Source of the DNA: Pseudomonas lalucatii
GTDB lineage: Bacteria; Pseudomonadota; Gammaproteobacteria; Pseudomonadales; Pseudomonadaceae
Direction: 5' to 3'
Assembly: GCF_018398425.1 (NCBI RefSeq)
Contig: NZ_JADPMV010000001.1
Coordinates: forward strand, 1,674,001 to 1,738,000
DNA: 64,000 bases
Part shown: in pieces, positions 1 to 44,396 of the stretch
Layout: every line of letters starts with the position of its first letter
Position numbering within the stretch: the first letter of the stretch is position 1
Notes under the pieces: generated by a model
Database searches by the model: none
What the model was told of the DNA's origin: nothing
Seen by the model: only the letters and a program-made list of their open reading frames with translations
Program-made: the position numbers and the translations under genes

Positions 1-210
1 TGCCCCGGCGATGCCTCGGCCCAGTCGCGGCGACCGCCGGCTGTCGGCTTTCAGTCTGCCGCAAGGGCCATCCCACGGCGACGACGCCGTGGATAGCGGG
101 CCGGGACCGACGGCAAGCCGCCGAAAATCGGACCTCGGCACCCTTGTCAAGCAGAACGCCTTGGTGCAGCATAGTGAAAAACAAAACAATTATTTCACGA
201 GGGTGTAAAA
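1..210. other. Upstream region of the aminotransferase gene
   Basis: No convincing gene is visible in this stretch. The short open frame at 11-208 has no ribosome-binding site and a composition unlike a protein gene. The last 40 bases turn AT-rich and carry an inverted repeat at 174-198, then a Shine-Dalgarno-like GAGGGTG at 199-205. I could not identify a clear sigma-70 promoter, and a weak sigma-54-like match near 44-60 lacks most of the consensus. Confidence 0.5.
174..198. promoter_or_regulatory. Inverted repeat GTGAAA-N13-TTTCAC (candidate operator)
   Basis: A perfect 6-bp inverted repeat ends 12 bases before the aminotransferase start codon. A 25-bp block at 12997-13021, upstream of the DMGDH operon, matches it at 19 of 25 positions in the same layout. 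Seeing the element in front of both cluster-1 units suggests a shared regulator. The regulator is not in the window and its family is unknown. Confidence 0.5.
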
Positions 211-1371
211 ATGAAAAATGCGATCTCCGCCGTGGACCCCGATGGCCTCCTCGAATACTCGGTGGTCTACACCGACCGCTCCCTCAACCATATGTCGCAG
301 TCGTTCCAGCGGGTGATGAACGACATCTCCAGTACCTTGAAAGAGGTCTACAACGCCCAGGCCGTGGCGGTCGTACCGGGTAGCGGCACCTTCGGCATGG
401 AGGCGGTGGCCCGCCAGCTGGCCACCGATCAGGAATGCCTGGTCATCCGCAACGGCTGGTTCAGCTATCGCTGGTCGCAGATCTTCGAGATGGGTGGCAT
501 ACCTGCGGCGACCACCGTGCTGAAAGCCCGTCCGCTGGCGGCGCAGCGCCAGGCCGCCTTCGCCCCGCCGCCGCTCGAGGAGGTGCTGGCCACCATCCGG
601 GCGCAGAAGCCCCAGGTGGTCTTCGCCCCCCATGTCGAAACCTCGTCGGGCATGATTCTGCCCGATGCCTACCTGCGCGCCGTGGCCGATGCCGTGCATG
701 GCGTCGGCGGCCTGTTCGTGCTGGACTGCATCGCGTCGGGCACCTTGTGGATCGACATGCAGGCCTGTGGCATCGATGTGCTGATCAGCGCGCCGCAGAA
801 AGGCTGGAGCGGCTCGCCCTGCTGCGCGCTGGTGATGCTCAGCCAGCGGGGACTCGAGCGCGTCAACGCCACCCAGAGCAGCAGCTTTGCCTGCGACCTG
901 AAGAAGTGGCTGCAGATCATGCAGGCCTATGAACAGGGCGGCCACGCCTACCACGCCACCATGCCCAGTGACGCCCTGGCCCGCTTCCGTGACGTGATGA
1001 AGGAAACCCAGGCCTATGGCTTCGAGGCCGTGCGCGCCGAGCAACAGGAACTGGGTGACCGGGTGCGTGCGTTGTTGAGTCGCAGAGGCTTCAAGAGTGT
1101 CGCCGCGCCGGGCTTCGAGGCGCCCGGCGTGGTGGTCTGTTACACCGACGATGGCGATATCAAGAACGGCAAGAAGTTCGCCGCCCAGGGCCTGCAGATC
1201 GCCGCCGGCGTGCCGCTGCAATGCGACGAGCCGAGCGACTTCCAGACCTTCCGCATCGGCCTGTTCGGTCTCGACAAGCTGAACCACGTCGAACGCACCC
1301 TGGCAACCCTCGAGCAGGCCCTCGACGGCGTCCTCGACGCCCGAGCGGCGCTCGCCAGCCCGAATCACTGA
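211..1371 (+). CDS. Class-V PLP aminotransferase, alanine/serine-glyoxylate type
   Basis: A 386-residue fold-type I PLP enzyme of the alanine/serine-glyoxylate aminotransferase group. Visible marks are the N-terminal VPGSGTFGMEA phosphate-binding segment (about residues 55-65), the VFAPHVETSSG stretch (about 137-147), and SAPQKGW with the predicted Schiff-base lysine at K197. The start follows a GAGGGTG site by 5 bases. It heads a plus-strand run with a GlcG-like gene, glyA and sdaA, so transamination between serine or alanine and glyoxylate to give glycine fits well. The exact substrate pair is inferred. Phosphonate or aspartate-glyoxylate relatives cannot be excluded from sequence alone. 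Confidence 0.85.
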   Translation: MKNAISAVDPDGLLEYSVVYTDRSLNHMSQSFQRVMNDISSTLKEVYNAQAVAVVPGSGTFGMEAVARQLATDQECLVIRNGWFSYRWSQIFEMGGIPAATTVLKARPLAAQRQAAFAPPPLEEVLATIRAQKPQVVFAPHVETSSGMILPDAYLRAVADAVHGVGGLFVLDCIASGTLWIDMQACGIDVLISAPQKGWSGSPCCALVMLSQRGLERVNATQSSSFACDLKKWLQIMQAYEQGGHAYHATMPSDALARFRDVMKETQAYGFEAVRAEQQELGDRVRALLSRRGFKSVAAPGFEAPGVVVCYTDDGDIKNGKKFAAQGLQIAAGVPLQCDEPSDFQTFRIGLFGLDKLNHVERTLATLEQALDGVLDARAALASPNH

Positions 1372-1391: not shown

Positions 1392-1820
1392 ATGAAAATG
1401 GTACCCAGACTTACCCTGGCCGACGCCCAGGTCATCATGCAGGCCTGCGTGCGCAAGGCCAGGGAAATCGCCGTCGACATGGACATCGCCATCACCGACG
1501 ACGCCGGCCACCTGCTGCTGTTCCAGCGCATGGACAACGCCCGCATCACCAGCATCGACATCGCCATGGGCAAGTCCTTCACCGCCTCCGCCGCCCGTAA
1601 ATCGACCCGCGCCTATGGCGAGGTGAGCGTACCGGGCAAACCGGCCTTCGGCATCAACACCAGCAACCAGGGCCGCTTCTCCATAGTCGCCGGCGGGCTG
1701 CCGCTGTTTCTCCACGAACAGATCATCGGCGGCATCGGCTGCAGCTCGGGCACCCCCGACCAGGACGAGATCGTCGCCCAGGCCGGTGTCGAGGCCTTCC
1801 AGGCCTATGTCATCAACTGA
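1392..1820 (+). CDS. GlcG/HbpS-family (heme-binding-like) protein
   Basis: A 142-residue protein of the GlcG/HbpS/PduO-C-terminal family. It shows the typical opening LTLADAQVIMQACVRKA, the central DDAGHLLLFQRMDNA, and the ending GGIGCSSGTPDQDEIVAQAG. The ATG at 1392 lies 20 bases after the aminotransferase stop and is preferred over upstream in-frame starts that would overlap that gene. Some family members bind haem and others sit in glycolate or diol loci with no settled function. Here it is in a glyoxylate/glycine operon, which recalls GlcG in the glycolate oxidase operon. Its role is unknown. Confidence 0.85.
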   Translation: MKMVPRLTLADAQVIMQACVRKAREIAVDMDIAITDDAGHLLLFQRMDNARITSIDIAMGKSFTASAARKSTRAYGEVSVPGKPAFGINTSNQGRFSIVAGGLPLFLHEQIIGGIGCSSGTPDQDEIVAQAGVEAFQAYVIN

Positions 1821-1918: not shown

Positions 1919-3172
1919 ATGTTCGGCAAACAAGATCAAATCCAAGGCTACGACGACGAACTGCTGGCGGCGATGAACGCCGAAGAAGCGCGTCAGGAGC
2001 ACCACATCGAGCTGATCGCCTCGGAAAACTACACCAGCAAGCGCGTCATGCAGGCCCAGGGCAGCGGGCTGACCAACAAGTACGCCGAAGGCTACCCGGG
2101 CAAGCGCTACTACGGCGGCTGCGAGCACGTCGACGTGGTCGAGCAGCTGGCCATCGACCGCGCCAAGCAGCTGTTCGGCGCCGATTTCGCCAACGTCCAG
2201 CCGCACTCCGGCTCCTCGGCCAACAGCGCCGTGTACCTGGCCCTGCTCAATGCGGGCGACACCATCCTGGGCATGAGCCTGGCCCACGGCGGCCACCTGA
2301 CCCATGGTTCCAAGGTCAGCTCCTCCGGCAAGCTGTACAACGCCGTGCAGTACGGCATCGACACCGCCACCGGGCTGATCGACTACGACGAAGTCGAGCG
2401 CCTGGCCGTGGAGCACCAGCCGAAGATGATCGTCGCCGGCTTCAGCGCCTACTCCAAGACCCTGGACTTTGCGCGCTTCCGCGAGATCGCCGACAAGGTC
2501 GGCGCGCTGCTGTTCGTCGACATGGCCCACGTCGCCGGCCTGGTCGCCGCCGGCCTGTACCCGAACCCGCTGCCCTACGCCGACGTGGTCACCACCACCA
2601 CCCACAAGACCCTGCGCGGCCCCCGTGGCGGCCTGATCCTGGCCAAGAGCAATCCCGAGATCGAGAAGAAGCTCAACGCCGCGGTGTTCCCCGGTGCCCA
2701 GGGCGGCCCGCTGATGCACGTGATCGCCGCCAAGGCGGTGTGCTTCAAGGAGGCCCTGGAGCCCGAGTTCAAGGAGTACCAGGCCCAGGTGATCAAGAAC
2801 GCCCAGGCCATGGCCAAGGTGTTCATCGAGCGCGGCTTCGACGTGGTCTCCGGCGGCACCGACAACCACCTGTTCCTCCTCAGCCTGATCAAGCAGGGCC
2901 TGACCGGCAAGGACGCCGACGCCGCCCTGGGCCGCGTCGGCATCACGGTGAACAAGAACTCGGTGCCGAACGACCCGCAGTCGCCGTTCGTCACCTCGGG
3001 CCTGCGCATCGGCACCCCGGCGGTGACCACCCGCGGCTTCAAGGAGGCCCAGTGCGTCGCCCTGGCCGGCTGGATCTGCGACGTCCTCGACCACCTCGGC
3101 GATGGCGAGGTGGAAGCCCGAGTCGCCACCCTGGCGGCAGAGCTGTGCGCGGACTACCCGGTCTACGCCTAG
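1919..3172 (+). CDS. glyA: Serine hydroxymethyltransferase (copy 1)
   Basis: A full-length 417-residue PLP enzyme that interconverts glycine plus 5,10-methylene-THF with serine plus THF. It contains the [12 protein letters not shown] substrate motif, the [12 protein letters not shown]-phosphate segment, and the signature [14 protein letters not shown] with the Schiff-base lysine at K230. A GGAGAT site lies about 10 bases before the ATG. It is followed by sdaA, so glycine and C1 units from the opposing operon can become serine and then pyruvate. The middle of the gene is nearly identical in DNA to the second glyA at 40466, while both ends are clearly different. Confidence 0.97.
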
Positions 3173-3258: not shown

Positions 3259-4641
<1,383 letters not shown>

Positions 4642-4867: not shown

Positions 4868-4897
4868 AAAAAAAAAAAGCACGAGCCGGGTTCGTGC
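4868..4897 (-). terminator. Rho-independent terminator of the DMGDH-ETF operon
   Basis: On the minus strand the arms GCACGA and TCGTGC (7-base loop) are followed by a run of eleven T. It lies about 80 bases beyond the stop of the ETF-QO gene, the last gene of that operon. Confidence 0.85.
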
Positions 4898-4976
4898 CTT
4901 CAGGAAAGTGCCGCCTGCAAAGCTGCCAGCCCCCCAGCGCACCCGCGGGCGCATGAGCCGGCAGCACGGAGAATCC

Positions 4977-6635
4977 TCACATGTTCGGGTAGCTGGGACC
5001 GCCGCCGCCCTCCGGGGCCACCCAGCGAATGTTCTGGGCCGGGTCCTTGATGTCGCAGGTCTTGCAGTGCAGGCAGTTCTGCGCGTTGATCTGCAAGCGC
5101 TTGCCGGCCTCCTCCTCGATCACCTCGTAGACCCCCGCCGGGCAGTAACGCTGGGCCGGTTCGTTGAATCGCGGCAGGTTGTGCTGCAGCGGCACTTCCG
5201 GGTCCAGCAGCTGCAAATGGCAGGGCTGGTCCTCGACGTGGTTGGTGTTGGAAAGGAACACCGAGGACAGCTTGTCGAAACTCAGCACGCCATCCGGCTT
5301 CGGGTAGACGATCCGCGGACACAGCGCCGCCTGCTTCATCTGGGCATGGTCTGGCACATTGTCACGCAGGCGAATCGGCAGTTTGCCGCCGAACAGGTTC
5401 TGGTCGATGAAGTTGAAGGCGCCCCCGAGCAGCGGGCCGAACTTGTGCAGCGCCGGACCGAAGTTGCGGCTGCGGTACAACTCCTCATGCAGCCAGGAGG
5501 CCTCGAAGCGTTCGCCGTAGGCCGACAGCTCGTTGCCACCGCCGTCGCCCCGGCACAGCGCCTCGAACACCACTTCGGCGGCCAGCATTCCCGACTTCAT
5601 CGCCGTATGGGTGCCCTTGATCTTGGCGAAGTTCAGGGTACCGGCGTTGCAGCCGATCAGCAGCCCGCCCGGGAAGGTCATCTTCGGCAGGGCATTGAAA
5701 CCGCCCTTGGCGATGGCCCGCGCGCCATAGGCCACGCGCTTGCCGCCCGCCAGGTACTGGGCCAGCGCCGGGTGGTGCTTGAGCCGCTGGAACTCATCGA
5801 AGGGGCTGACGTGCGGGTTCGAGTAATTGAGGTCGACGATCAGGCCGACCACCACCTGATGGTTGTCGCCATGGTAGAGAAAGAAACCGCCCGAGGTGCC
5901 GTCGCTGAGCGGCCAGCCGGTGCCATGCAGGACCAGGCCGGGGCGGTGCTGGCCCGGCTCGATGTCCCACAGCTCCTTGATCCCCAGCCCGTAGTGCTGG
6001 CTGTCGGCGTCGGCATCCAGGGCGAAGCGCTGGTACAGCGTCTTGCCCAGGTGCCCGCGGCAGCCCTCGGCGAACAGGGTGTACTTGGCATGCAGTTCCA
6101 TGCCCGGCATGAAGCCGTCGCTGGCCTCACCGTCGCGGCCGACGCCCATGTCGCCGGTGGCGATGCCCTTGACCGAGCCATCCTCGCGATAGAGCACTTC
6201 GCTCGCCGCGAAGCCGGGGAAAATCTCCACGCCCAGGGCTTCGGCCTGCTCGGCCAGCCAGCGACAGAGGTTGCCCAGGCTGATGATGTAGTTGCCGGCG
6301 TTGTGCAGGCTTTTCGGCACCATCCAGTCGGGCAGCTGCAGGGCGCGCCGCTGGTCGCGCAGCAGCAGGATCCTGTCCTGCACCACCGGGGTGTGCAGGG
6401 GCGCGCCGCGCTCGGCCCAGTCGGGGAACAGCTCATCCAGCGCACGGGTTTCCAGGATCGCCCCGGAGAGGATATGGGCGCCGACCTCCGAGCCCTTCTC
6501 GACCACACAGACACTCAGCTCCTGCCCCGCCGCCTGGGCCTGCTGCATCAGCCTGCAGGCGGCGGCCAGACCCGATGGGCCGGCACCGACGATGACAACA
6601 TCGAACTCCATGGATTCACGCGCAGTCTGGCTCAC
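4977..6635 (-). CDS. Electron-transfer flavoprotein:ubiquinone oxidoreductase
   Basis: A 552-residue inner-membrane-associated flavoprotein that takes electrons from reduced ETF to ubiquinone. It has an N-terminal FAD Rossmann motif VVIVGAGPSGLAAA (about 13-26), the ETF-QO stretch GAHILSGAI, and a C-terminal ferredoxin-like 4Fe-4S segment NCLHCKTCDIKDPAQN. Length matches the bacterial and mitochondrial family. It is the last gene of the minus-strand operon, 154 bases after folD, and that gap contains a 30-bp perfect palindrome. With etfB and etfA in the same operon it completes the route from the DMGDH-type dehydrogenase to the quinone pool. Confidence 0.96.
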   Translation of the reverse strand: MSQTARESMEFDVVIVGAGPSGLAAACRLMQQAQAAGQELSVCVVEKGSEVGAHILSGAILETRALDELFPDWAERGAPLHTPVVQDRILLLRDQRRALQLPDWMVPKSLHNAGNYIISLGNLCRWLAEQAEALGVEIFPGFAASEVLYREDGSVKGIATGDMGVGRDGEASDGFMPGMELHAKYTLFAEGCRGHLGKTLYQRFALDADADSQHYGLGIKELWDIEPGQHRPGLVLHGTGWPLSDGTSGGFFLYHGDNHQVVVGLIVDLNYSNPHVSPFDEFQRLKHHPALAQYLAGGKRVAYGARAIAKGGFNALPKMTFPGGLLIGCNAGTLNFAKIKGTHTAMKSGMLAAEVVFEALCRGDGGGNELSAYGERFEASWLHEELYRSRNFGPALHKFGPLLGGAFNFIDQNLFGGKLPIRLRDNVPDHAQMKQAALCPRIVYPKPDGVLSFDKLSSVFLSNTNHVEDQPCHLQLLDPEVPLQHNLPRFNEPAQRYCPAGVYEVIEEEAGKRLQINAQNCLHCKTCDIKDPAQNIRWVAPEGGGGPSYPNM

Positions 6636-6724
6636 GAAAGGTTTCCTTATTGTTGTAGGTAGCCGGGACCGGTCCGGCTAGCGGATTGACTCGGGCTCGA
6701 GAAAAACCGGGCGCAGGGGCAGGC

Positions 6725-6754
6725 CGCCGCTGCGCGTCATGACGCGCAGCGGCG
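6725..6754. repeat. 30-bp perfect palindrome between folD and ETF-QO
   Basis: The half-site CGCCGCTGCGCGTCA is followed directly by its exact reverse complement. As RNA it would form a stem of about 13 bp with a 4-base loop, 36 bases past the folD stop. No U-tract follows. It could block 3'-exonucleases, attenuate transcription, or bind a dimeric protein as DNA. Confidence 0.7.
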
Positions 6755-6789
6755 TGGCTGTTACAGCCTCGGACGCCGAAGGCGAATCG

Positions 6790-7692
6790 TTAGCGGGTGC
6801 GCTGCCGGGCGGCGGTCAGCGTGTTGCGCAACAGGCAAGCCACCGTCATCGGCCCGATGCCGCCGGGCACCGGCGTCAGGGCGCCGGCCACCCGTGAGGC
6901 CGCGGCAAAGTCGACATCGCCGACCAGGCGCGACTGCCCCTGCTCGTCCTCGACGCGGTTGATGCCCACATCCAGCACCGTGGCGCCCGGCTTGATGTGC
7001 TCGACCCCGACCAGTCCCGGACGACCGACGGCCACCACCAGGATGTCGGCCTGACGGCACTCCTCGGCCATGTTGCGGCTGCGCGAGTGCACCGTGGTGA
7101 CCGTGCAGTTGGCGTTGAGCAGCAATTGCGCCATCGGCTTGCCGACGATATTGGAGCGCCCGACCACCACCGCCTTGAGACCGGAGAGGTCGCCCAGGCG
7201 ATCCTGCAACAGCAGCAGGCAGCCCAGGGGCGTGCAAGGCACCATTACCGGCTGCCCGGCACTCAGGCGTCCGACGTTGTAGGGATGGAAACCGTCGACA
7301 TCCTTGGCCGGCGCTATCGCCTCGATCACCGCGGCCTCGCTGATTCCGGCCGGCAGCGGCAGCTGCACCAGGATCCCATCGACACTGTCATCGTGGTTGA
7401 GCGAGTCGATCAGGGCCAGCAACTCGGCCTCGCCGGTGTTGGCGTCCAGCAGATGGGGAAAGGAGGCGATACCCACCTCCGCGGCCTGGCGCATCTTGGT
7501 GCGCACATAGACCTGACTGGCCGGGTCGTTGCCGACCAGGACCACCGCCAGACCCGGCTGGCGCCCGGTGTCGCGGCTAAAGCCGGCCGCACCCTCGGCC
7601 ACTTCGCCACGCAGCTGCGCCGCGAAGGCCTTGCCGTCGATTAGCTCTGCCGCGGGTACAGCCTGGTGGATTTCGGTTGCCAGATCGCTCAT
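6790..7692 (-). CDS. folD: Bifunctional methylene-THF dehydrogenase / methenyl-THF cyclohydrolase
   Basis: A 300-residue FolD that converts 5,10-methylene-THF to 10-formyl-THF using NADP. Visible are the [14 protein letters not shown] segment with catalytic lysine K66, the VPCTPLG motif, the dinucleotide-binding [16 protein letters not shown], and the terminal [16 protein letters not shown]. It has roughly a dozen more N-terminal residues than E. coli FolD. It lies 18 bases after purU in the demethylation operon, which points to C1 oxidation during methyl-group catabolism rather than to biosynthesis. A housekeeping folD probably exists elsewhere. Confidence 0.96.
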
Positions 7693-7710
7693 CGGTGCAA
7701 GTCCTCGGTC

Positions 7711-8571
7711 TCAGAAAACGACGGTGCGCAGCCCGTTCAGGAACACGCGGTGGGATACGTGATACTTCACCGCCCGGGCCAGCGCCTGGGCTTCCATATC
7801 CCGCCCAATCTGGGTCAGATGCAACGCATCATGCGAGTGATTCACTCGATCGACCATCTGCTCGATGATCGGCCCCTCGTCGAGGTCGCCGGTGACGTAG
7901 TGCGCCGTCGCCCCGATCAGCTTCACGCCGCGGTCGTAGGCCTGGTAATAGGGCTTGGCGCCCTTGAAGCCCGGCAGGAAGGAGTGGTGAATATTAATGC
8001 AGCGGCCGGCCAGCTTCTGGCTCAGTTCGTCGGACAACACCTGCATGTAGCGCGCCAGCACCACCAGCTCGGTGCCGGTGCTGTCGATGATCTCCAGCAG
8101 GCGGGCTTCCTGCTCCGGCTTGGTTTCCTTGGTCACCGGCAGGTGGATGTACTCGATGCCTTCGTGCTCGGCCATCGCCCGCAGGTCTTGGTGATTGGAC
8201 ACGATGGCGGTGATGTCGATCGGCAGCTCGCCGGTCGCCCGGCGGTAGAGCAGGTCGCGCAGGCAGTGATCGTACTTCGACACCATGATCAGCACCTTGG
8301 CGCGCTCGGAGGCGTCGTGAATCTCCCAGTCCATCTCGAAACGCAGCGCCGTGACCTCGAAGGCCGCCTTCAGCTGTTCGACGCTGAAGGTGCGCTCGCC
8401 CTCGAAGACGAACTGGATGGTGGAGAAGAAGCGACCGGAATCCAGGTCGTCGTACTGGTGCAGTTCCTTGATGAAACAGCCCCGGTCGGCCATGAAGTTG
8501 CCGATGGCGGCGACGATGCCGACACGCCCCGGGCAGGAAACCTTGAGGATATATGAGGGTTTGTTCTTCAT
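7711..8571 (-). CDS. purU: Formyltetrahydrofolate deformylase
   Basis: A 286-residue enzyme that hydrolyses 10-formyl-THF to formate and THF. It has an N-terminal ACT-type domain (about 1-80) and a formyltransferase-fold domain with HHSFLPGFKGAKPY and HYVTGDLDEGPIIEQ, which hold the catalytic His/Asp region. The start MKNKPS at 8571 is preferred because the longer frame would run back into etfA. It lies 31 bases after the etfA stop. Together with FolD it regenerates free THF so that demethylation can continue. A second copy near mvaT, as I recall in P. aeruginosa, is not present in this window. Confidence 0.95.
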   Translation of the reverse strand: MKNKPSYILKVSCPGRVGIVAAIGNFMADRGCFIKELHQYDDLDSGRFFSTIQFVFEGERTFSVEQLKAAFEVTALRFEMDWEIHDASERAKVLIMVSKYDHCLRDLLYRRATGELPIDITAIVSNHQDLRAMAEHEGIEYIHLPVTKETKPEQEARLLEIIDSTGTELVVLARYMQVLSDELSQKLAGRCINIHHSFLPGFKGAKPYYQAYDRGVKLIGATAHYVTGDLDEGPIIEQMVDRVNHSHDALHLTQIGRDMEAQALARAVKYHVSHRVFLNGLRTVVF

Positions 8572-8602
8572 TTCGATTCTCTTCTGACTCGCACGGGTTG
8601 AA

Positions 8603-9532
8603 TTAGAGCGCCGCTTCGAGCTGCGGCAGGACCTCGAACAGATCGCCGACGATACCGTAATCGGCCACCTGGAAGATCGGCGCGTCGGCATCCTTGTTGA
8701 TCGCCACGATCAGCTTGGAGTCTTTCATGCCCGCCAGGTGCTGGATCGCCCCGGAAATGCCCACGGCGATATACAGCTCGGGGGCCACCACTTTACCGGT
8801 CTGGCCGACCTGCAGGTCGTTCGCGGCGAAACCGGCGTCCACTGCGGCGCGCGAAGCACCGACCGCGGCGCCGATCTTGTCGGCGACCGCCTCGAGCAGG
8901 GCGAAACTTGCACCACTGCCCATGCCACGTCCACCGGAAATCACCACGCGCGCCGTCGCCAGTTCGGGCCCCTCGGACTTGGCCTCGGTGCGGCTGAGCA
9001 CCACGGCACCCTGCCGGGGTGCCGGTGCCGGTCGGCTCAGCTGTTCGGCGGCGCCACCGGTGGCGGCCACCGGCTCGAACTTGGTGCTGCGTACGGTGAT
9101 CACCTTGATCGCCTCGCGACTGCGGTAGGTGGCCAGGACGTTGCCGGCGTAGATCGGCCGCTCGAACGTCTCGGCATCGATCACCGCGCTGATATCGGAG
9201 AGCTGCGCCACGTCCAGCAGAGCGGCGACCCGCGGCATCAGGTTCTTGCCGAAGCTGTTGGCCGGGGCCAGCAGGTGGCTGTAGCCCTCGGCATATTCGC
9301 GCACCAGCGGCGCCATGTCTTCGGCCACCGGCTGCTTGAGGTACTCGGCCTCGACGCTGATCACCCGGCGCACCCCGGCGATGGCCGCGGCCGCCTGACT
9401 GACGCCAGCGCAGCCGTGCCCCATCACCAGCAGGTCGATGTCACCACCGATCTGCTGCGCAGCGCCGAGGGTGTTGAAGGTTGCAGCCGCGATGGCGGCG
9501 TTGTCATGTTCGACAATTACCAGACTGGACAT
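8603..9532 (-). CDS. etfA: Electron-transfer flavoprotein alpha subunit
   Basis: A 309-residue FAD-binding ETF alpha chain. The C-terminal FAD domain shows SGGRGMGSGASFALLEAVAD, GASRAAVDAGF and the signature NKDADAPIFQVADYGIVGDL. Its start lies 11 bases after the etfB stop with a good GAGGAG site. It heterodimerises with EtfB, takes electrons from the DMGDH-type dehydrogenase encoded upstream and passes them to ETF-QO encoded at the operon end. Confidence 0.96.
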   Translation of the reverse strand: MSSLVIVEHDNAAIAAATFNTLGAAQQIGGDIDLLVMGHGCAGVSQAAAAIAGVRRVISVEAEYLKQPVAEDMAPLVREYAEGYSHLLAPANSFGKNLMPRVAALLDVAQLSDISAVIDAETFERPIYAGNVLATYRSREAIKVITVRSTKFEPVAATGGAAEQLSRPAPAPRQGAVVLSRTEAKSEGPELATARVVISGGRGMGSGASFALLEAVADKIGAAVGASRAAVDAGFAANDLQVGQTGKVVAPELYIAVGISGAIQHLAGMKDSKLIVAINKDADAPIFQVADYGIVGDLFEVLPQLEAAL

Positions 9533-9543
9533 TCTTCGACTCC

Positions 9544-10296
9544 TCAGAGCACTGCCGCTTCGGTTTTCAGTTTGGCCACCAGCTCGGCGGCAGTCGCTAC
9601 CAATACCCCACCCGCCTGCCGCACCGGCGGCTCGGTCGCCGAGAGCAGCTCCAGGCGCGGCGTCAGGTCGACACCCAGCTCCTGCGCAGTGACCTGCTCC
9701 AGGGGCTTCTTCTTGGCTTTCATGATCGCCGGCAACGAGGCGAAGCGCGGCTCGTTCAGGCGCAGATCGACGCTGACCACCGCCGGCAGATCGAGGGCCA
9801 GGGTCTCCAGGCCGCCGTCGACCTCACGCATCACTTCGATCTTGCCGTCGGCCAGCTTCAGGCCCGAGGCGAAGGTGCCTTGCGGCCAGTCCAGCAGTGC
9901 CGCCAGCATCTGCCCGGCCTGGTTGCAGTCGTCGTCGATCGCCTGCTTGCCGAGCATCACCAGTTGCGCCGACTCCCTGGCCACCAGCGCCTGCAGGGTC
10001 TTGGCCACCGACAGCGGTTCGGTGATGCCGTCGTAGGGGATGAGAATCGCCCGATCGACGCCCATCGCCAGGGTCTGGCGCAAGGTTTCCTGAGCCTTCT
10101 CCGGGCCGATGGACACCGCCACCACCTCGCTGGCGACCCCGGCTTCCTTGAGCCGGATCGCCGCCTCCACGGCGATTTCGTCGAACGGGTTGATCGCCAT
10201 CTTGGCGTTGTCCAAGTCCACGCCCGAGCCGTCCGGTTTGACTCGCACCTTTACGTTGTGGTCGATAACCCGCTTCACGCCTACCAAGATCTTCAT
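9544..10296 (-). CDS. etfB: Electron-transfer flavoprotein beta subunit
   Basis: A 250-residue ETF beta chain beginning [20 protein letters not shown] and continuing with the conserved [14 protein letters not shown] motif. A GGAGAA site precedes the ATG. It lies 31 bases downstream of the DMGDH-type gene. The adjacent dehydrogenase suggests a dedicated ETF rather than the general fatty-acid-oxidation ETF. Confidence 0.96.
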
Positions 10297-10327
10297 GCGC
10301 TGTTCTCCTGCTTGAATGCCTAATCAA

Positions 10328-12778
10328 TCAACACTTGATGCGTTCGTTAGTCGGATCGTAGAAGGGCCGCAGCGACGGCTGCACCTTGTAGCGCACGCAC
10401 TCCACCTCGATCTCGAACTGGGTGTTCTCCAGCCACTCCTTGCTCACGCCCGGAGCATGCTCGACATAGCCCATGGCGATGGTGGTGCCCAGGGTGTGGC
10501 CGAACATCCCCGCCGTGGTGCGGCCGACGATCTCGCCATCGGCGTAGATCGGCTCCTCGTGGTAGCAGAGCGGCTCGGGGTCCTCGAACAGGAAGGCCAC
10601 GAAGCGCTTGCTCGGAGTGCCCTTGGCCTTCTGCGCCAGCAGCGCCTCCTTGCCGATAAAGCCGCCGGCCTTGTTGAAGTCCACGGCAAAGCCCAGCCCG
10701 GCCTCGAGCGGCGTGTCTTCGTCGGTGATGTCGTGGCCCCAGTGGCGGTAGCCCTTCTCCATGCGCAACGAGTTCATGGTGTGGTAGCCGTAGGGGCGAA
10801 TGCCGAACTCCTGGCCCGCGGCCAGCACCGCCTCATAGACGCTCGGGGCGTATTCGGTGGGGATATACAGTTCCCAGCCCAACTCGCCGACGTAGGTGAT
10901 GCGCGAGGCGCGCACCACCGCATAGTTCAGGTCGATCTCCCGCGATGTGGCGAACGGGAAGCCCTCGTGGGACAGGTCGGCTTCGGTCAGCTTGCTCAGC
11001 GTCTCGCGGGAACTCGGGCCCATCACCGTGACCACCGCATAGGCCGAGGTCATGTCGGTGATCACCACCCGGGCGTCCTCGGGCTTGTTGCGCTTGAGCC
11101 AGTCGAGGTCGCGGTTCTGGCAGGCCACGCCGGAGACCACCAGGAAGCGCTCGGCGGCCAGGCGGGTCACGGTGACATCGGCCTCGATGCCGCCGCGCTC
11201 GTTCAGCCACTGGGTGTAGACCATCCGCCCCACCGCGACCGCGACGTTGTTGGCGCAGATACGGTTGAGGAAGGCCTCGGCGTCGGCCCCCTCGACCTGG
11301 TACTTGGAGAAGGAGCTCTGGTCGATCACGCCGACCGCGTTGCGCACGCAGGCGTGCTCCAGGGCATTGTTGGCAAACCAGTTCTGCCGCCCGAAGGAGT
11401 ATTCATACTCCGCCTTCTGCCCCTCGCCGGCGAACCAGTTCGCCCGCTCCCAGCCGTTCTCGACGCCGAAGCAGGCGCCCTGGGCCTTGAGCTGTTCATG
11501 CAGCACGGAGCGGCGCACGCCGCGGGCGGTCTTGAACTGCTTGAACGGGTAATGGGTCTCGTACAGCAACCCCAGGGACTCGGTGGTGCGCTCGTACAGG
11601 TAACGCTGGGTGCCCTGGAACGGCATGTTCCGGCGGATGTCCACGCCCCACAGATCGCGCGGCGCATGGCCCTTGTGAATCCACTCGGCGAGCATCTTGC
11701 CGGCACCGCCGGCGGACTGGATGCCCACCGAGTTGAAGCCGGCCGCGACGAAGTAGTTCTTCAGCTCAGGCGCCTCGCCGATGTGGTAGCGGTCATCCGG
11801 GGTGAAGGATTCGGGACCATTGAAGAACACCTGCAGGCCGGTGCGCTCGAGTACCGGCAGGCGGTGCATCGCCGACTCCAGGTAGGGTTCCAGGTGCTCG
11901 AAATCGGTCGGCAGTTCGTCGAAGCAGAAGCTCTCCGGGATGCCCTCCATCCCCCAGGGCTTGGCGTTGGGCTCGAAGGTGCCGATCAGCAGCTTGCCGG
12001 CATCCGGCTTGTAGTAGTTGAAGCCGTCCATGTCGCGCAGCGTGGCCAGGCCGGCCTGCAGCTCGGGGATGCTTTCGGTCACCACATAGTAGTGTTCCGC
12101 CGCGTGCAGCGGCACGTTGACCCCGGCCTTGCGGCCGAACTCGCGGGCCCACATGCCGGCGCAGTTGACCACGTACTCGGCGTCGATATCGCCCTGCTCG
12201 GTGACCACCCCGACGGCGCGGCCATCGCGGGTCTTGAGGTCCAGCACGCGGGTATTCTCGAAGATCCTCGCGCCGCCCATCCGTGCGCCCCTGGCCAGCG
12301 CCTGGGTGGTGTCGACCGGGCTGGTCATGCCATCCATCGGCAGGTGGATGGCGCCGATCACGTCGTCGATGTTCAGCAGCGGCCAGAGCTCCAGCGCCTG
12401 CTGCGGGCCGATCAGGTTGCAGGGAAAACCCGCCACCTTGGCCATCGAGGCACCGCGCTTGATCTCCGCCAGACGCTCCTTGTTGGTGGCGATGGTCAGG
12501 GAACCGTTGCGCACGAAACCGGTGGCCTGGCCGGTCTCGGCCTCCAGCTGCTCGTAGAGGCTGGCGCTGTAGTTGGCCAGCATGGACATGGTGTAGTTGG
12601 CGCGCAGGGTCGGGACCAGGCCGGCGGCGTGCCAGGTGGTTCCGCTGGTCAGGGTCTTGCGCTCGAGCAGCACGACATCGCGCATGCCCAGTTTGGTCAG
12701 GTGGTAGGCCAGACTGCAGCCGATCACGCCGCCACCCACGATCACCACTTGCGCCTGATTCGGCATTGAGCTGCTCAT
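10328..12778 (-). CDS. Dimethylglycine/sarcosine dehydrogenase-type FAD- and THF-dependent flavoprotein
   Basis: An 816-residue, two-part enzyme. The N-terminal half is a DAO-type FAD domain with VVIVGGGVIGCSLAYHL (about 11-27) and TSGTTWHAAGL, whose H50 matches the histidine that covalently binds FAD in mitochondrial DMGDH/SARDH. The C-terminal half (about 430-816) is a GcvT-like folate-binding domain (SSFSKYQVEGADAEAFL, GELGWELYIPTEYA, GHTLGTTIAMGYVEHAPG). It should oxidise N-methyl groups of dimethylglycine or sarcosine to 5,10-methylene-THF. It is followed by etfB, etfA, purU, folD and ETF-QO, which fit each step. Whether it prefers dimethylglycine, sarcosine or both is not decidable here. 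Neither the heterotetrameric SoxBDAG nor DgcAB is present in the window. Confidence 0.9.
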   Translation of the reverse strand: MSSSMPNQAQVVIVGGGVIGCSLAYHLTKLGMRDVVLLERKTLTSGTTWHAAGLVPTLRANYTMSMLANYSASLYEQLEAETGQATGFVRNGSLTIATNKERLAEIKRGASMAKVAGFPCNLIGPQQALELWPLLNIDDVIGAIHLPMDGMTSPVDTTQALARGARMGGARIFENTRVLDLKTRDGRAVGVVTEQGDIDAEYVVNCAGMWAREFGRKAGVNVPLHAAEHYYVVTESIPELQAGLATLRDMDGFNYYKPDAGKLLIGTFEPNAKPWGMEGIPESFCFDELPTDFEHLEPYLESAMHRLPVLERTGLQVFFNGPESFTPDDRYHIGEAPELKNYFVAAGFNSVGIQSAGGAGKMLAEWIHKGHAPRDLWGVDIRRNMPFQGTQRYLYERTTESLGLLYETHYPFKQFKTARGVRRSVLHEQLKAQGACFGVENGWERANWFAGEGQKAEYEYSFGRQNWFANNALEHACVRNAVGVIDQSSFSKYQVEGADAEAFLNRICANNVAVAVGRMVYTQWLNERGGIEADVTVTRLAAERFLVVSGVACQNRDLDWLKRNKPEDARVVITDMTSAYAVVTVMGPSSRETLSKLTEADLSHEGFPFATSREIDLNYAVVRASRITYVGELGWELYIPTEYAPSVYEAVLAAGQEFGIRPYGYHTMNSLRMEKGYRHWGHDITDEDTPLEAGLGFAVDFNKAGGFIGKEALLAQKAKGTPSKRFVAFLFEDPEPLCYHEEPIYADGEIVGRTTAGMFGHTLGTTIAMGYVEHAPGVSKEWLENTQFEIEVECVRYKVQPSLRPFYDPTNERIKC

Positions 12779-12996: not shown

Positions 12997-13021
12997 ATGA
13001 AAAACTATATTATTTTTTCAC
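12997..13021. promoter_or_regulatory. Inverted repeat TGAAAAA-N9-TTTTTCA (candidate activator site)
   Basis: The arms are at 12998-13004 and 13014-13020. The centre lies about 105 bases upstream of the predicted sigma-54 start, a normal enhancer distance. The 25-bp block matches the one at 174-198 at 19 of 25 positions. An AT-rich MvaT target is an alternative reading. Confidence 0.5.
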
Positions 13022-40465: not shown

Positions 40466-41722
40466 ATGTTCTATAAAAGCCTGACCCTAGACCACTACGA
40501 TCCGGCCCTGGCCCACGCCATCGCCGCCGAAGAGCGCCGCCAGGAAGATCATATCGAGCTGATCGCCTCGGAAAACTACACCAGCCCCGCGGTGATGCAG
40601 GCGCAGGGCACCGGGCTGACCAACAAGTACGCCGAAGGCTACCCGGGCAAGCGCTACTACGGCGGCTGCGAGCACGTCGACCTGGTCGAGCAGCTGGCCA
40701 TCGACCGCGCCAAGCAGCTGTTCGGCGCCGATTTCGCCAACGTCCAGCCGCACTCCGGCTCCTCGGCCAACGGCGCCGTCTACCTGGCCCTGCTCAACGC
40801 CGGCGACACCCTGCTGGGCATGAGCCTGGCCCATGGCGGCCACCTGACCCATGGTTCCAAGGTCAGCTCCTCCGGCAAGCTGTACAACGCCGTGCAGTAC
40901 GGCCTGGACACCGCCACCGGGCTGATCGACTACGACGAAGTCGAGCGCCTGGCCGTGGAGCACCAGCCGAAGATGATCGTCGCCGGCTTCAGCGCCTACT
41001 CCAAGACCCTGGACTTCCCGCGCTTCCGCGAGATCGCCGACAAGGTCGGCGCGCTGCTGTTCGTCGACATGGCCCACGTCGCCGGCCTGGTCGCCGCCGG
41101 CCTGTACCCGAACCCGCTGCCCTACGCCGACGTGGTCACCACCACCACCCACAAGACCCTGCGCGGCCCCCGTGGCGGCCTGATCCTGGCCAAGAGCAAC
41201 CCGGAGATCGAGAAGAAGCTCAACGCCGCGGTGTTCCCCGGCGCCCAGGGCGGCCCGCTGATGCACGTGATCGCCGCCAAGGCGGTGTGCTTCAAGGAGG
41301 CCCTGGAGCCCGAGTTCAAGGAGTACCAGGCCCAGGTGATCAAGAACGCCCAGGCCATGGCCAAGGTGTTCATCGAGCGCGGCTTCGACGTGGTCTCCGG
41401 CGGCACCGACAACCACCTGTTCCTCCTCAGCCTGATCAAGCAGGGCCTGACCGGCAAGGCCGCCGACGCGGCACTGGGCGCCGCGCACATCACGGTGAAC
41501 AAGAACGCCGTGCCGAACGACCCGCAGTCGCCGTTCGTCACCTCGGGCCTGCGCATCGGCACCCCGGCGGTCACCACCCGCGGTTTCAAGGAAGGCGAGT
41601 GCCGCGAACTGGCCGGCTGGATCTGCGACATCCTGGACGACCTGGACAACCCCGGCGTCATCGAGCGGGTCCGTGGTCAGGTCGCCAGCCTGTGCGCCAG
41701 CTTCCCGGTCTACGCTGAATAG
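40466..41722 (+). CDS. glyA: Serine hydroxymethyltransferase (copy 2)
   Basis: A 418-residue SHMT with all family motifs ([26 protein letters not shown] with K230). In the glycine-cleavage operon it turns glycine plus the methylene-THF released by GcvT into serine for SdaA. Its middle (40907-41459) differs from the first glyA by only five bases in 553 by my count, while the first roughly 115 and last roughly 130 bases differ strongly. Confidence 0.97.
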
Positions 41723-41741
41723 ATAACTAGGTTGCTTAGCC

Positions 41742-41769
41742 CGACGCGCGCCTGACAGGGCGCGCGTCG
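41742..41769 (+). repeat. Intercistronic 11-bp hairpin (glyA2 / sdaA2)
   Basis: Perfect arms CGACGCGCGCC and GGCGCGCGTCG with a 6-base loop, 19 bases after the glyA2 stop. No U-tract follows. Confidence 0.75.
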
Positions 41770-41796
41770 CGGCAGCGCAAGAAGCCGGAGTCCACC

Positions 41797-43173
<1,377 letters not shown>

Positions 43174-43218
43174 TTCGCCGAATGCGCCTCGCGCACCGCG
43201 GCCCTAACCCTGCGCGCG

Positions 43219-43245
43219 GCGCACCAACCCCTTTAAACGGTGCGC
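43219..43245 (+). repeat. Intercistronic hairpin (sdaA2 / gcvT)
   Basis: Arms GCGCACC and GGTGCGC enclose a 13-base loop in the 98-base gap. A smaller TGCGC/GCGCA stem lies at 43183-43195, just after the sdaA2 stop. Confidence 0.5.
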
Positions 43246-43271
43246 ACCGCGCACCCTACCGGAGACATTGC

Positions 43272-44396
43272 ATGACCAGCGAAAACCTGGCGAAAACCCC
43301 GCTTCACGCCCTGCACCTGGAACTCGGCGCGCGCATGGTGCCCTTCGCCGGCTACGACATGCCGGTGCAGTACCCGCTCGGCGTGATGAAGGAACACCTG
43401 CACTGCCGCGAGGCGGCCGGTCTGTTCGACGTCTCGCACATGGGCCAGGTCGTCCTGCGCGGCGCGCACGCCGCCCAGGCCCTGGAGAGCCTGGTGCCGG
43501 TGGACATCATCGACCTGCCGGTGGGCATGCAGCGCTACGCCATGTTCACCGACGCCAACGGCGGCATCCTCGACGACCTGATGGTCGCCAGGCTGGCCGA
43601 CGACTGCCTGTTCCTGGTGGTCAACGCCGCCTGCAAGGACCAGGACCTGGCCCACCTGCGCAGCCAGATCGGCGAGCGCTGCGAGATCGACAGCCTGTTC
43701 GAGTCGCGCGCCCTGCTGGCCCTGCAGGGTCCGAAGGCGGCCGAGGTCCTCGCGCGCCTGGCCCCGGACGTCGCCAAGATGACCTTCATGCAGTTCGCCA
43801 GCGTGCGCCTGCTGGGCGTCGACTGCTTCGTCAGCCGCTCCGGCTACACCGGCGAGGACGGCTACGAGATCTCCGTGCCCAACGAGCAGGCCGAGGCCCT
43901 GGCCCGCGCCCTGCTGGCCGAGGCGGAAGTCGAGGCCATCGGCCTCGGCGCCCGCGACTCGCTGCGCCTGGAAGCCGGCCTGTGCCTGTACGGCCACGAC
44001 ATGAGCACGGCCACCACGCCGATCGAGGCCAGCCTGCTGTGGGCCATGTCCCAGCCGCGCCTCGCCGACGGCGCGCGGGCCGGCGGCTTCCCCTGCGCCG
44101 AGCGGATCTTCGCCCAGCAGCAGAGCGGCGTCGCCAGCAAGCGCGTCGGCCTGCTGCCCCAGGAGCGCGTGCCGGTCCGCGAGGGCGCGGAAATCGTCGA
44201 TGCCGACGGCCAGGTGATCGGCGCGGTCACCAGCGGCGGCTTCGGCCCGACCCTCGGTGCGCCGGTGGCCATGGGCTATGTGCAGAGCAGCCACGTGGCG
44301 CTGGACAGCGAAGTCTGGGCGGTGGTGCGCGGCAAGCGCGTGGCCATGAAGGTCGCCAAGACCCCCTTCGTGCCGCAGCGCTACTACCGCGGCTGA
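43272..44396 (+). CDS. gcvT: Glycine cleavage system T protein (aminomethyltransferase)
   Basis: A 374-residue THF-dependent aminomethyltransferase. Motifs include [38 protein letters not shown] and the C-terminal [16 protein letters not shown]. The start [11 protein letters not shown] at 43272 follows CCGGAGAC. It releases ammonia and passes methylene to THF. It is also homologous to the C-terminal half of the dehydrogenase at 10328-12778. Confidence 0.97.

Follow-up and report, generated by a model that had tools for sequence, protein, structure and literature searches.

A dehydrogenase operon of Pseudomonas lalucatii shares a putative operator with sulfonate-type transport genes and may take part in the demethylation of N-methylated taurines

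The window analysed here is a stretch of 64,000 nucleotides from Pseudomonas lalucatii (contig NZ_JADPMV010000001.1, positions 1,674,001 to 1,738,000), whose genome comprises 2 contigs and 4.58 Mb. It contains an operon of six genes, all on the minus strand within positions 4977-12778, which encodes an 816-aa dehydrogenase (DM1), both subunits of electron transfer flavoprotein (ETF), two enzymes of one-carbon (C1) metabolism and ETF-quinone oxidoreductase (ETF-QO). From the sequence we estimate a slightly better than even chance that this operon is part of a co-regulated module demethylating N-methylated taurines to taurine. Methylated taurines appear likelier substrates than methylated glycines because the operon shares its operator with a sulfonate-type transporter and taurine-degradation genes adjoin. 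In order of transcription, the operon reads:

10328..12778, minus strand: DM1, 816-aa flavin adenine dinucleotide (FAD)/folate N-methyl dehydrogenase of the dimethylglycine dehydrogenase/sarcosine dehydrogenase (DMGDH/SARDH) superfamily (Pfam DAO, FAO_M, GCV_T, GCV_T_C; match to rat DMGDH)
9544..10296, minus strand: etfB, ETF beta subunit (Pfam ETF, 144 bits)
8603..9532, minus strand: etfA, ETF alpha subunit (Pfam ETF and ETF_alpha)
7711..8571, minus strand: purU, formyltetrahydrofolate deformylase (TIGR00655, 317.7 bits, cut-off 285.95)
6790..7692, minus strand: folD (NF010785, 443.8 bits, cut-off 396)
4977..6635, minus strand: ETF-QO (Pfam Fer4_ETF_QO, 166 bits; ETFQO_UQ-bd, 134 bits)
4875..4901, minus strand: terminator-like stem 3' of the ETF-QO gene (a consensus match, no more than chance)

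Open reading frames (ORFs) and Pfam and NCBIfam matches confirm the names and the order given to these genes in the original prediction. For purU, a longer ORF starting at 8691 would overlap etfA by 89 bp, and the start is likely 8571. The intergenic gaps then measure 31, 11, 31, 18 and 154 bp, the third depending on this start. The stem at 4901-4875 is weak, since the terminator scan gave 2 hits against a shuffled mean of 5; no sigma-70-like promoter was found by the same scan.

All four Pfam domains of DM1 score above their cut-offs, and the protein matches rat DMGDH (PDB 4pab) with an E-value of 2.3e-156 and 525 bits, and the folate-dependent dimethylglycine enzyme of PDB 1pj5 with 367 bits. 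In the alignment with mammalian DMGDH, its TTWHAAGL falls opposite STWHAAGL, the motif being present in all 8 alignment rows viewed, and we take the histidine of TWHAAGL to be the site of a predicted covalent bond to FAD. By these domains and this alignment, the type of dehydrogenase originally proposed stands at gene level. The same applies to the proposed electron route: EtfBA and ETF-QO are encoded together with the dehydrogenase, and its coupling to ETF and ETF-QO is well supported in terms of genes. C1 disposal through FolD and PurU likewise has gene-level support, both being above curated cut-offs. The N-methylglycine substrate claimed for DM1, in turn, is doubtful.

Upstream of the operon lies a palindrome, TGAAAW-N11-WTTTCA, which recurs without mismatch upstream of an opposing unit on the plus strand:

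12998..13020, no strand: palindromic operator TGAAAW-N11-WTTTCA upstream of the DM1 operon (0 mismatches; predicted function)
175..197, no strand: operator copy upstream of the aminotransferase-glyA-sdaA unit (0 mismatches; predicted function)
211..1371, plus strand: AT, class V aminotransferase of the serine-pyruvate/alanine-glyoxylate type (Pfam Aminotran_5; PDB 3ke3)
1392..1820, plus strand: HbpS-like protein (PF03928; 92% identity to a P. taeanensis gene that is itself Pfam HbpS-like)
1919..3172, plus strand: glyA, serine hydroxymethyltransferase (Pfam SHMT, 588 bits)
3265..4641 (start approximate), plus strand: sdaA, L-serine ammonia-lyase (TIGR00720, 691.5 bits, cut-off 345.1)

The same operator upstream of both bears out the link that had been drawn between the operon and the glyA-sdaA-aminotransferase unit. 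Between AT (E 2.2e-150 against PDB 3ke3, a 'putative serine-pyruvate aminotransferase') and glyA sits the HbpS-like gene, which the original prediction did not mention. Elsewhere in the window, one more copy each of glyA (89% identical) and sdaA (63%) lies at 40466-44285, together with a GcvT-like gene.

The two operator sites of the window, both at promoters, compare with 0.05 expected when up to one mismatch is allowed. Further sites occur in L091, the stretch immediately upstream of the window, before a TauA-like gene and, with one mismatch, before the gene of a cupin-helix-turn-helix (cupin-HTH) regulator; at the same tolerance, none occurs in 12 other stretches of this genome. A common putative operator thus precedes the DM1, AT, TauA and cupin units, marking them as a candidate single regulon. 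From the gene linkage and the sites before its own gene, we infer that the cupin-HTH protein reads this operator, and it probably controls the module through it.

Besides the regulator, L091 holds genes resembling TauA, TauB and TauC, as well as DM2, which is paralogous to DM1 (~814 aa, 40% identity). Human DMGDH matches DM2 with 723 bits, against the 525 bits of DM1, so that of the two paralogues DM2 is closer to the mitochondrial enzyme. TauA-B-C-DM2 are co-directional with gaps of 99, 3 and 41 bp and span 11-17 kb from DM1. Taurine models are the best NCBIfam matches of the three transporter genes, and the nearest solved relative of the TauA-like binding protein is TauA 6ssy (131 bits, against 53 bits for a sulfonate-binding protein). 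Beyond DM2 follow a major facilitator superfamily (MFS) gene, a glucose-methanol-choline (GMC) oxidoreductase, an IclR gene, ThiG, a Tpa-like aminotransferase, a MocR regulator, alanine dehydrogenase (Ald) and Xsc, of which the last four lie 20-28 kb from DM1 and the Tpa-like, Ald and Xsc genes at 23-28 kb. Xsc, at 27.6 kb, scores 1019.7 bits against a cut-off of 676.4, Ald 512 against 392 and the MocR gene 367 against 320 (PdxR model). The Tpa-like gene is of class III type, its best NCBIfam match reaching 465 of 488 bits and its closest solved chains being other class III aminotransferases.

The MFS gene (L091:10449-11774) was considered as a taurine importer and dropped; it adjoins the GMC oxidoreductase and the IclR gene. 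These genes may form an isethionate set, of which IseR and IseU are presumably members. IseJ is described in a passage of PMC6453916 as a flavin-dependent isethionate dehydrogenase. Paired GMC oxidoreductase and IclR genes stand by the taurine genes at L091:7711-11774 and, in two relatives, by the DM1 locus (L013:14255-16738 and L028:14314-16865).

Relatives were taken from a collection scan as the best 80 of 269 loci, comprising 29 near loci (L011-L038 and L058; DM1 identity 69-95%) and 51 far loci (58-64%). In a tree of 124 rows, built by a quick method and with some long branches flagged, DM1 and DM2 fall into two groups. The near DM1 sequences cluster with SH-aLRT support of 100%, as do those of near DM2, and P. 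lalucatii, P. taeanensis and Marinobacterium profundum cluster together in both the DM1 and the DM2 group. Near and far DM1 are separated by 23 positions, which offer a lead on candidate specificity residues; two of them, 56 and 57, come right behind the FAD histidine.

The operator recurs in the near loci, with 36 exact sites in 26 of the 29 against 0.4 expected in Markov-simulated sequence, and two of the three loci without it are contigs starting inside the operon. Altogether 32 of the 36 sites are placed at the start of the DM1 operon (EtfB, PurU or DM1), ETF-QO, TauA, AT or the cupin gene; those before ETF-QO are in L015, L017, L020 and L029. In L026 the site falls within the predicted EtfB ORF by 46 bases, the start assigned to that ORF being probably too far upstream, and the site at L031:8438 precedes an unlabelled 128-aa ORF resembling the start of EtfB. 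Three sites precede other genes (L020:14482, L023:5013 and L024:5063). Directly downstream of the operator, two marine relatives encode a DAO-family oxidase (L023:5052-6488 and L024:5088-6560), and downstream of it in L020 a protein resembling trimethylamine N-oxide (TMAO) demethylase combines DUF1989 with GCV_T and reaches 1053.6 bits against an NCBIfam cut-off of 1100. Far loci yielded 9 sites in 8 of 51, seven of them at DM1; the site at L076:4855 lies inside an ORF. Six exact sites, one identical with L011:22314, were found in 15 flanking stretches (250 kb) of seven relatives. By its coordinates, the copy in L135 lies between divergent AT and Xsc genes. At L142:9719, an exact copy has no labelled gene within 400 bases.

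Among the loci compared, only P. taeanensis has the complete gene order of the window. Linkage to DM1 in near loci was nonetheless frequent for PurU (25/29), EtfBA (21/29), FolD (21/29) and the cupin gene (19/29), while ETF-QO was linked within the flanks in 5/29. DM2 was in the flanks of 10 of the 29 near and 32 of the 51 far loci, and at least two TauABC-like subunits were encoded in the fetched flanks of 14/29 near versus 2/51 far loci. Two loci illustrate the linkage to sulfonate genes. Marinobacterium profundum has the run glyA-sdaA-cupin-TauABC-DM2-DM1-EtfB-EtfA, and Marinomonas sargassi (L020) carries, on one strand, TauE-like, SafD (858.5 bits, cut-off 700), Tpa-like, MocR, ETF-QO, EtfBA, PurU, DM1 and FolD genes.

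Xsc exceeded its cut-off in 19 of the 29 near genomes versus 6 of the 292 other genomes of an order sample (n=293 with P. lalucatii, hence Xsc in 7/293). Both genes occur in 20 genomes, eight of which (P. lalucatii and seven relatives) have DM1 and Xsc on one contig, at distances of 10.7, 27.6, 27.8, 30.6, 32.4, 36.8, 44 and 52 kb; a simple estimate that ignores relatedness expects such proximity in ~0.5 of 20 at random. Of 17 places at which Xsc and DM1 might share a contig, seven contain DM1 (L116, L118, L120, L121, L123, L125 and L126), six lack it (L117, L119, L122, L124, L127 and L128) and four do not exist. Tpa-like and MocR genes accompany Xsc in six of the seven relatives, the stretch from the L028 genome holding an Xsc match only. 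The AT, GlyA, SdaA and ETF-QO genes show several arrangements in these relatives, and AT adjoins Xsc in L107 and L108.

Within a Pseudomonadaceae sample (n=398, including P. lalucatii; P. taeanensis lies outside it), a DM1-like gene was found in one genome, that of P. lalucatii, and Xsc in seven. Both Pseudomonadaceae genomes seen with DM1, P. lalucatii and P. taeanensis, carry Xsc. Around Xsc in the other six Xsc genomes of the sample (20-38 kb each) there was no DM1 or DM2, and the only TauABC matches were two weak ones to TauB (24-28%) in genome G378. In three of them, which belong to the same genus, the Xsc, MocR and Tpa-like genes show 87-94% identity, and the stretches fetched gave no match to DM1, DM2 or TauABC. 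The DM1 module thus appears to have been added to a sulfonate cluster, with marine relatives as its probable source.

The original prediction had cast the operon as a substitute for DgcAB and SoxBDAG, neither of which it saw in the window. These genes are indeed not among the window genes examined, but their markers lie elsewhere in the genome: a genome-wide check found GbcA (C2:1502080), DgcB (PF11982; C2:1520772), soxB at two places and soxA at the same two, all over cut-off. For P. lalucatii, replacement of DgcAB and SoxBDAG by the DM1 operon was therefore rejected; of the earlier interpretation, the gene-level functions and the operon link stood, whereas the role as substitute fell. The two soxA/soxB copies, one per contig (G000:C1:829857-834491 in L093 and G000:C2:1483376-1488010 in L094), have equal hidden Markov model scores, and beside each is a glyA 98% identical to that of the window. 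Across the 30 DM1 genomes (P. lalucatii and the 29 near ones), SoxA was over cut-off in 24, GbcA in 20 and DgcB in 18. By intersection of these lists, all three were found in 17; as a rule, therefore, DM1 supplements the standard betaine route and is dispensable for betaine use.

For the demethylation of N-methylated taurines, we infer the following course, including the substrate, the order of the two dehydrogenases and the supply of glycine. The TauABC-like ATP-binding cassette transporter would import the methylated sulfonate, DM2 would remove a first methyl group to turn dimethyltaurine into methyltaurine, and DM1 would remove the second, leaving taurine. Electrons from both enzymes would pass to EtfBA, ETF-QO and quinone, and the methyl carbon would go to tetrahydrofolate, from where FolD and PurU would oxidise the C1 unit to formate. 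Alternatively, GlyA could place it on glycine, which AT could make from glyoxylate, and SdaA would then release pyruvate. Taurine itself would enter the route of Tpa, alanine dehydrogenase and Xsc encoded next door.

Several observations weigh against a taurine substrate. TauA, TauB and TauC remain under the NCBIfam taurine cut-offs (193/304, 286/357 and 266/342 bits), and among the 25 of 65 families listed for the Tpa-like gene, none is matched above a curated cut-off and none is a Tpa model. In the flanks searched, the only exact operator at any of the Tpa, MocR, Ald and Xsc genes is the one in the AT-Xsc spacer. Ten of the 29 near genomes lack Xsc, and among order-sample genomes with DM1 at 65% identity or above, one of five, P. 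lalucatii itself, has it; three of the other four match near loci L015, L017 and L029 by coordinates. Among the 20 genomes that carry DM1 as well as Xsc, linkage on one contig is seen in 8 and not in the other 12. Nor are the locus counts independent, because many of the 29 genomes are kin and the 80 loci are the best of 269. As a general rule for the far relatives, the taurine link was dropped as unsupported: Xsc is present in 16 of 50 far genomes (the count is not given for L050), and there MttB has no association with Xsc (4/18 vs 12/32).

The rivals draw on further evidence of this kind. On one of them, DM1 and DM2 act as dehydrogenases for sarcosine and dimethylglycine beside DgcAB and SoxBDAG, for example at low oxygen, with the taurine genes as mere neighbours. 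We hold this unlikely, though not negligibly so. The likeness of both proteins to mammalian DMGDH speaks for it, as does the placing of glyA and sdaA under the same operator, which also fits a glycine-yielding substrate, and SoxA passes its cut-off in only 24 of the 30 DM1 genomes. Moreover, far DM1/DM2 relatives sit with MttB or GbcA-like genes: an MttB-family methyltransferase is in 18 of the 51 far DM1 loci (for example L056:5720-7288), which suggests a trimethylated precursor there, and a Rieske protein stands beside DM1 or DM2 in 3/51, the one tested being most like GbcA, below cut-off at 280 of 670 bits. Yet P. lalucatii already has GbcA, DgcB and two soxA/soxB sets, and N-methylglycines would leave unexplained the TauABC-like-DM2 run, the shared operator, SafD and the Tpa-like gene in L020 and the proximity of Xsc.

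Less likely again is some other N-methylated compound, such as an N-methyl amino acid, a TMAO- or methylamine-derived compound or another sulfonate, imported by a TauABC-like, tripartite ATP-independent periplasmic (TRAP) or sodium-alanine-type carrier. The carrier near DM1 does vary (TauABC-like in 14/29; L024 has a TRAP substrate-binding gene and L027 an AgcS carrier), the TauABC-like proteins fall short of the taurine cut-offs, and the TMAO-demethylase-like gene of Marinomonas sargassi (L020:14681-17011) lies downstream of the operator, which also counts against taurines; the dissimilation genes that recur nearby, however, are those for C2-sulfonates (Xsc, SafD, Tpa-like). Finally, FolD, PurU, GlyA and SdaA genes downstream of one operator would suit a unit for C1 supply or osmolyte recycling without a dedicated catabolic substrate. 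We regard this as very improbable, as a dedicated transporter and two specific dehydrogenases are under that operator as well.

Returning to the demethylation of methylated taurines, the proposed module resembles several known systems in part. Mitochondrial DMGDH and SARDH are wired to the respiratory chain via ETF and ETF-QO. DM1 has the same covalent-FAD motif and DAO + GCV_T architecture, its operon includes the ETF and ETF-QO genes, and with DM2 there are two paralogues, as in mitochondria. What sets the bacterial genes apart is their connection, through linkage and the common operator, with taurine genes and a sulfonate-type transporter. The pseudomonad betaine pathway GbcAB-DgcAB-SoxBDAG, with its glyA-soxBDAG-purU genes as outlined in part of PMC3691474, likewise combines N-demethylation and C1 transfer to folate with glyA and purU partners. 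It differs in that its markers lie elsewhere in the same genome, where DM1 does not replace it. A dimethylglycine oxidase gene cluster of Arthrobacter was reportedly described by Meskys et al. in 2001, a work cited in PMC7574528 and PMC3691474, the oxidase using O2; that enzyme (PDB 1pj5) belongs to the same superfamily and is folate-dependent, whereas DM1 is accompanied by ETF and ETF-QO genes.

For the later steps, the roles of Tpa, AlaDH and Xsc in taurine dissimilation are set out in a section of PMC6453916. The P. lalucatii genome has the corresponding Xsc and Ald over cut-off along with Tpa-like and MocR genes. N-Methyltaurine dissimilation in Alcaligenes and Paracoccus, said to have been reported by Weinitschke et al. 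in 2006, releases methylamine. That route concerns the same proposed substrate class and ends in sulfoacetaldehyde and Xsc; it splits off methylamine, whereas the DM1 module would oxidise the methyl group off and keep taurine. Among the matches listed in the open PMC literature, there was no paper on bacterial N-demethylation of methyltaurines. The chances are about even that an apparently undescribed pathway is at hand: an oxidative, folate- and ETF-linked demethylation of methylated taurines, encoded by a module that has a dedicated operator and cupin-HTH regulator. As part of such a pathway, the module would occur in many marine Oceanospirillaceae-type bacteria and be rare in Pseudomonas, where P. 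taeanensis and P. lalucatii have it.

Methylated taurines are solutes of marine algae and animals. If the proposal is true, bacteria would be able to convert these compounds to taurine while gaining C1 units and electrons for respiration, and one-carbon metabolism would be joined to C2-sulfonate breakdown. Marine genes labelled dimethylglycine or sarcosine dehydrogenase would then be misread, and the putative operator provides a simple handle for finding the regulon in other genomes.

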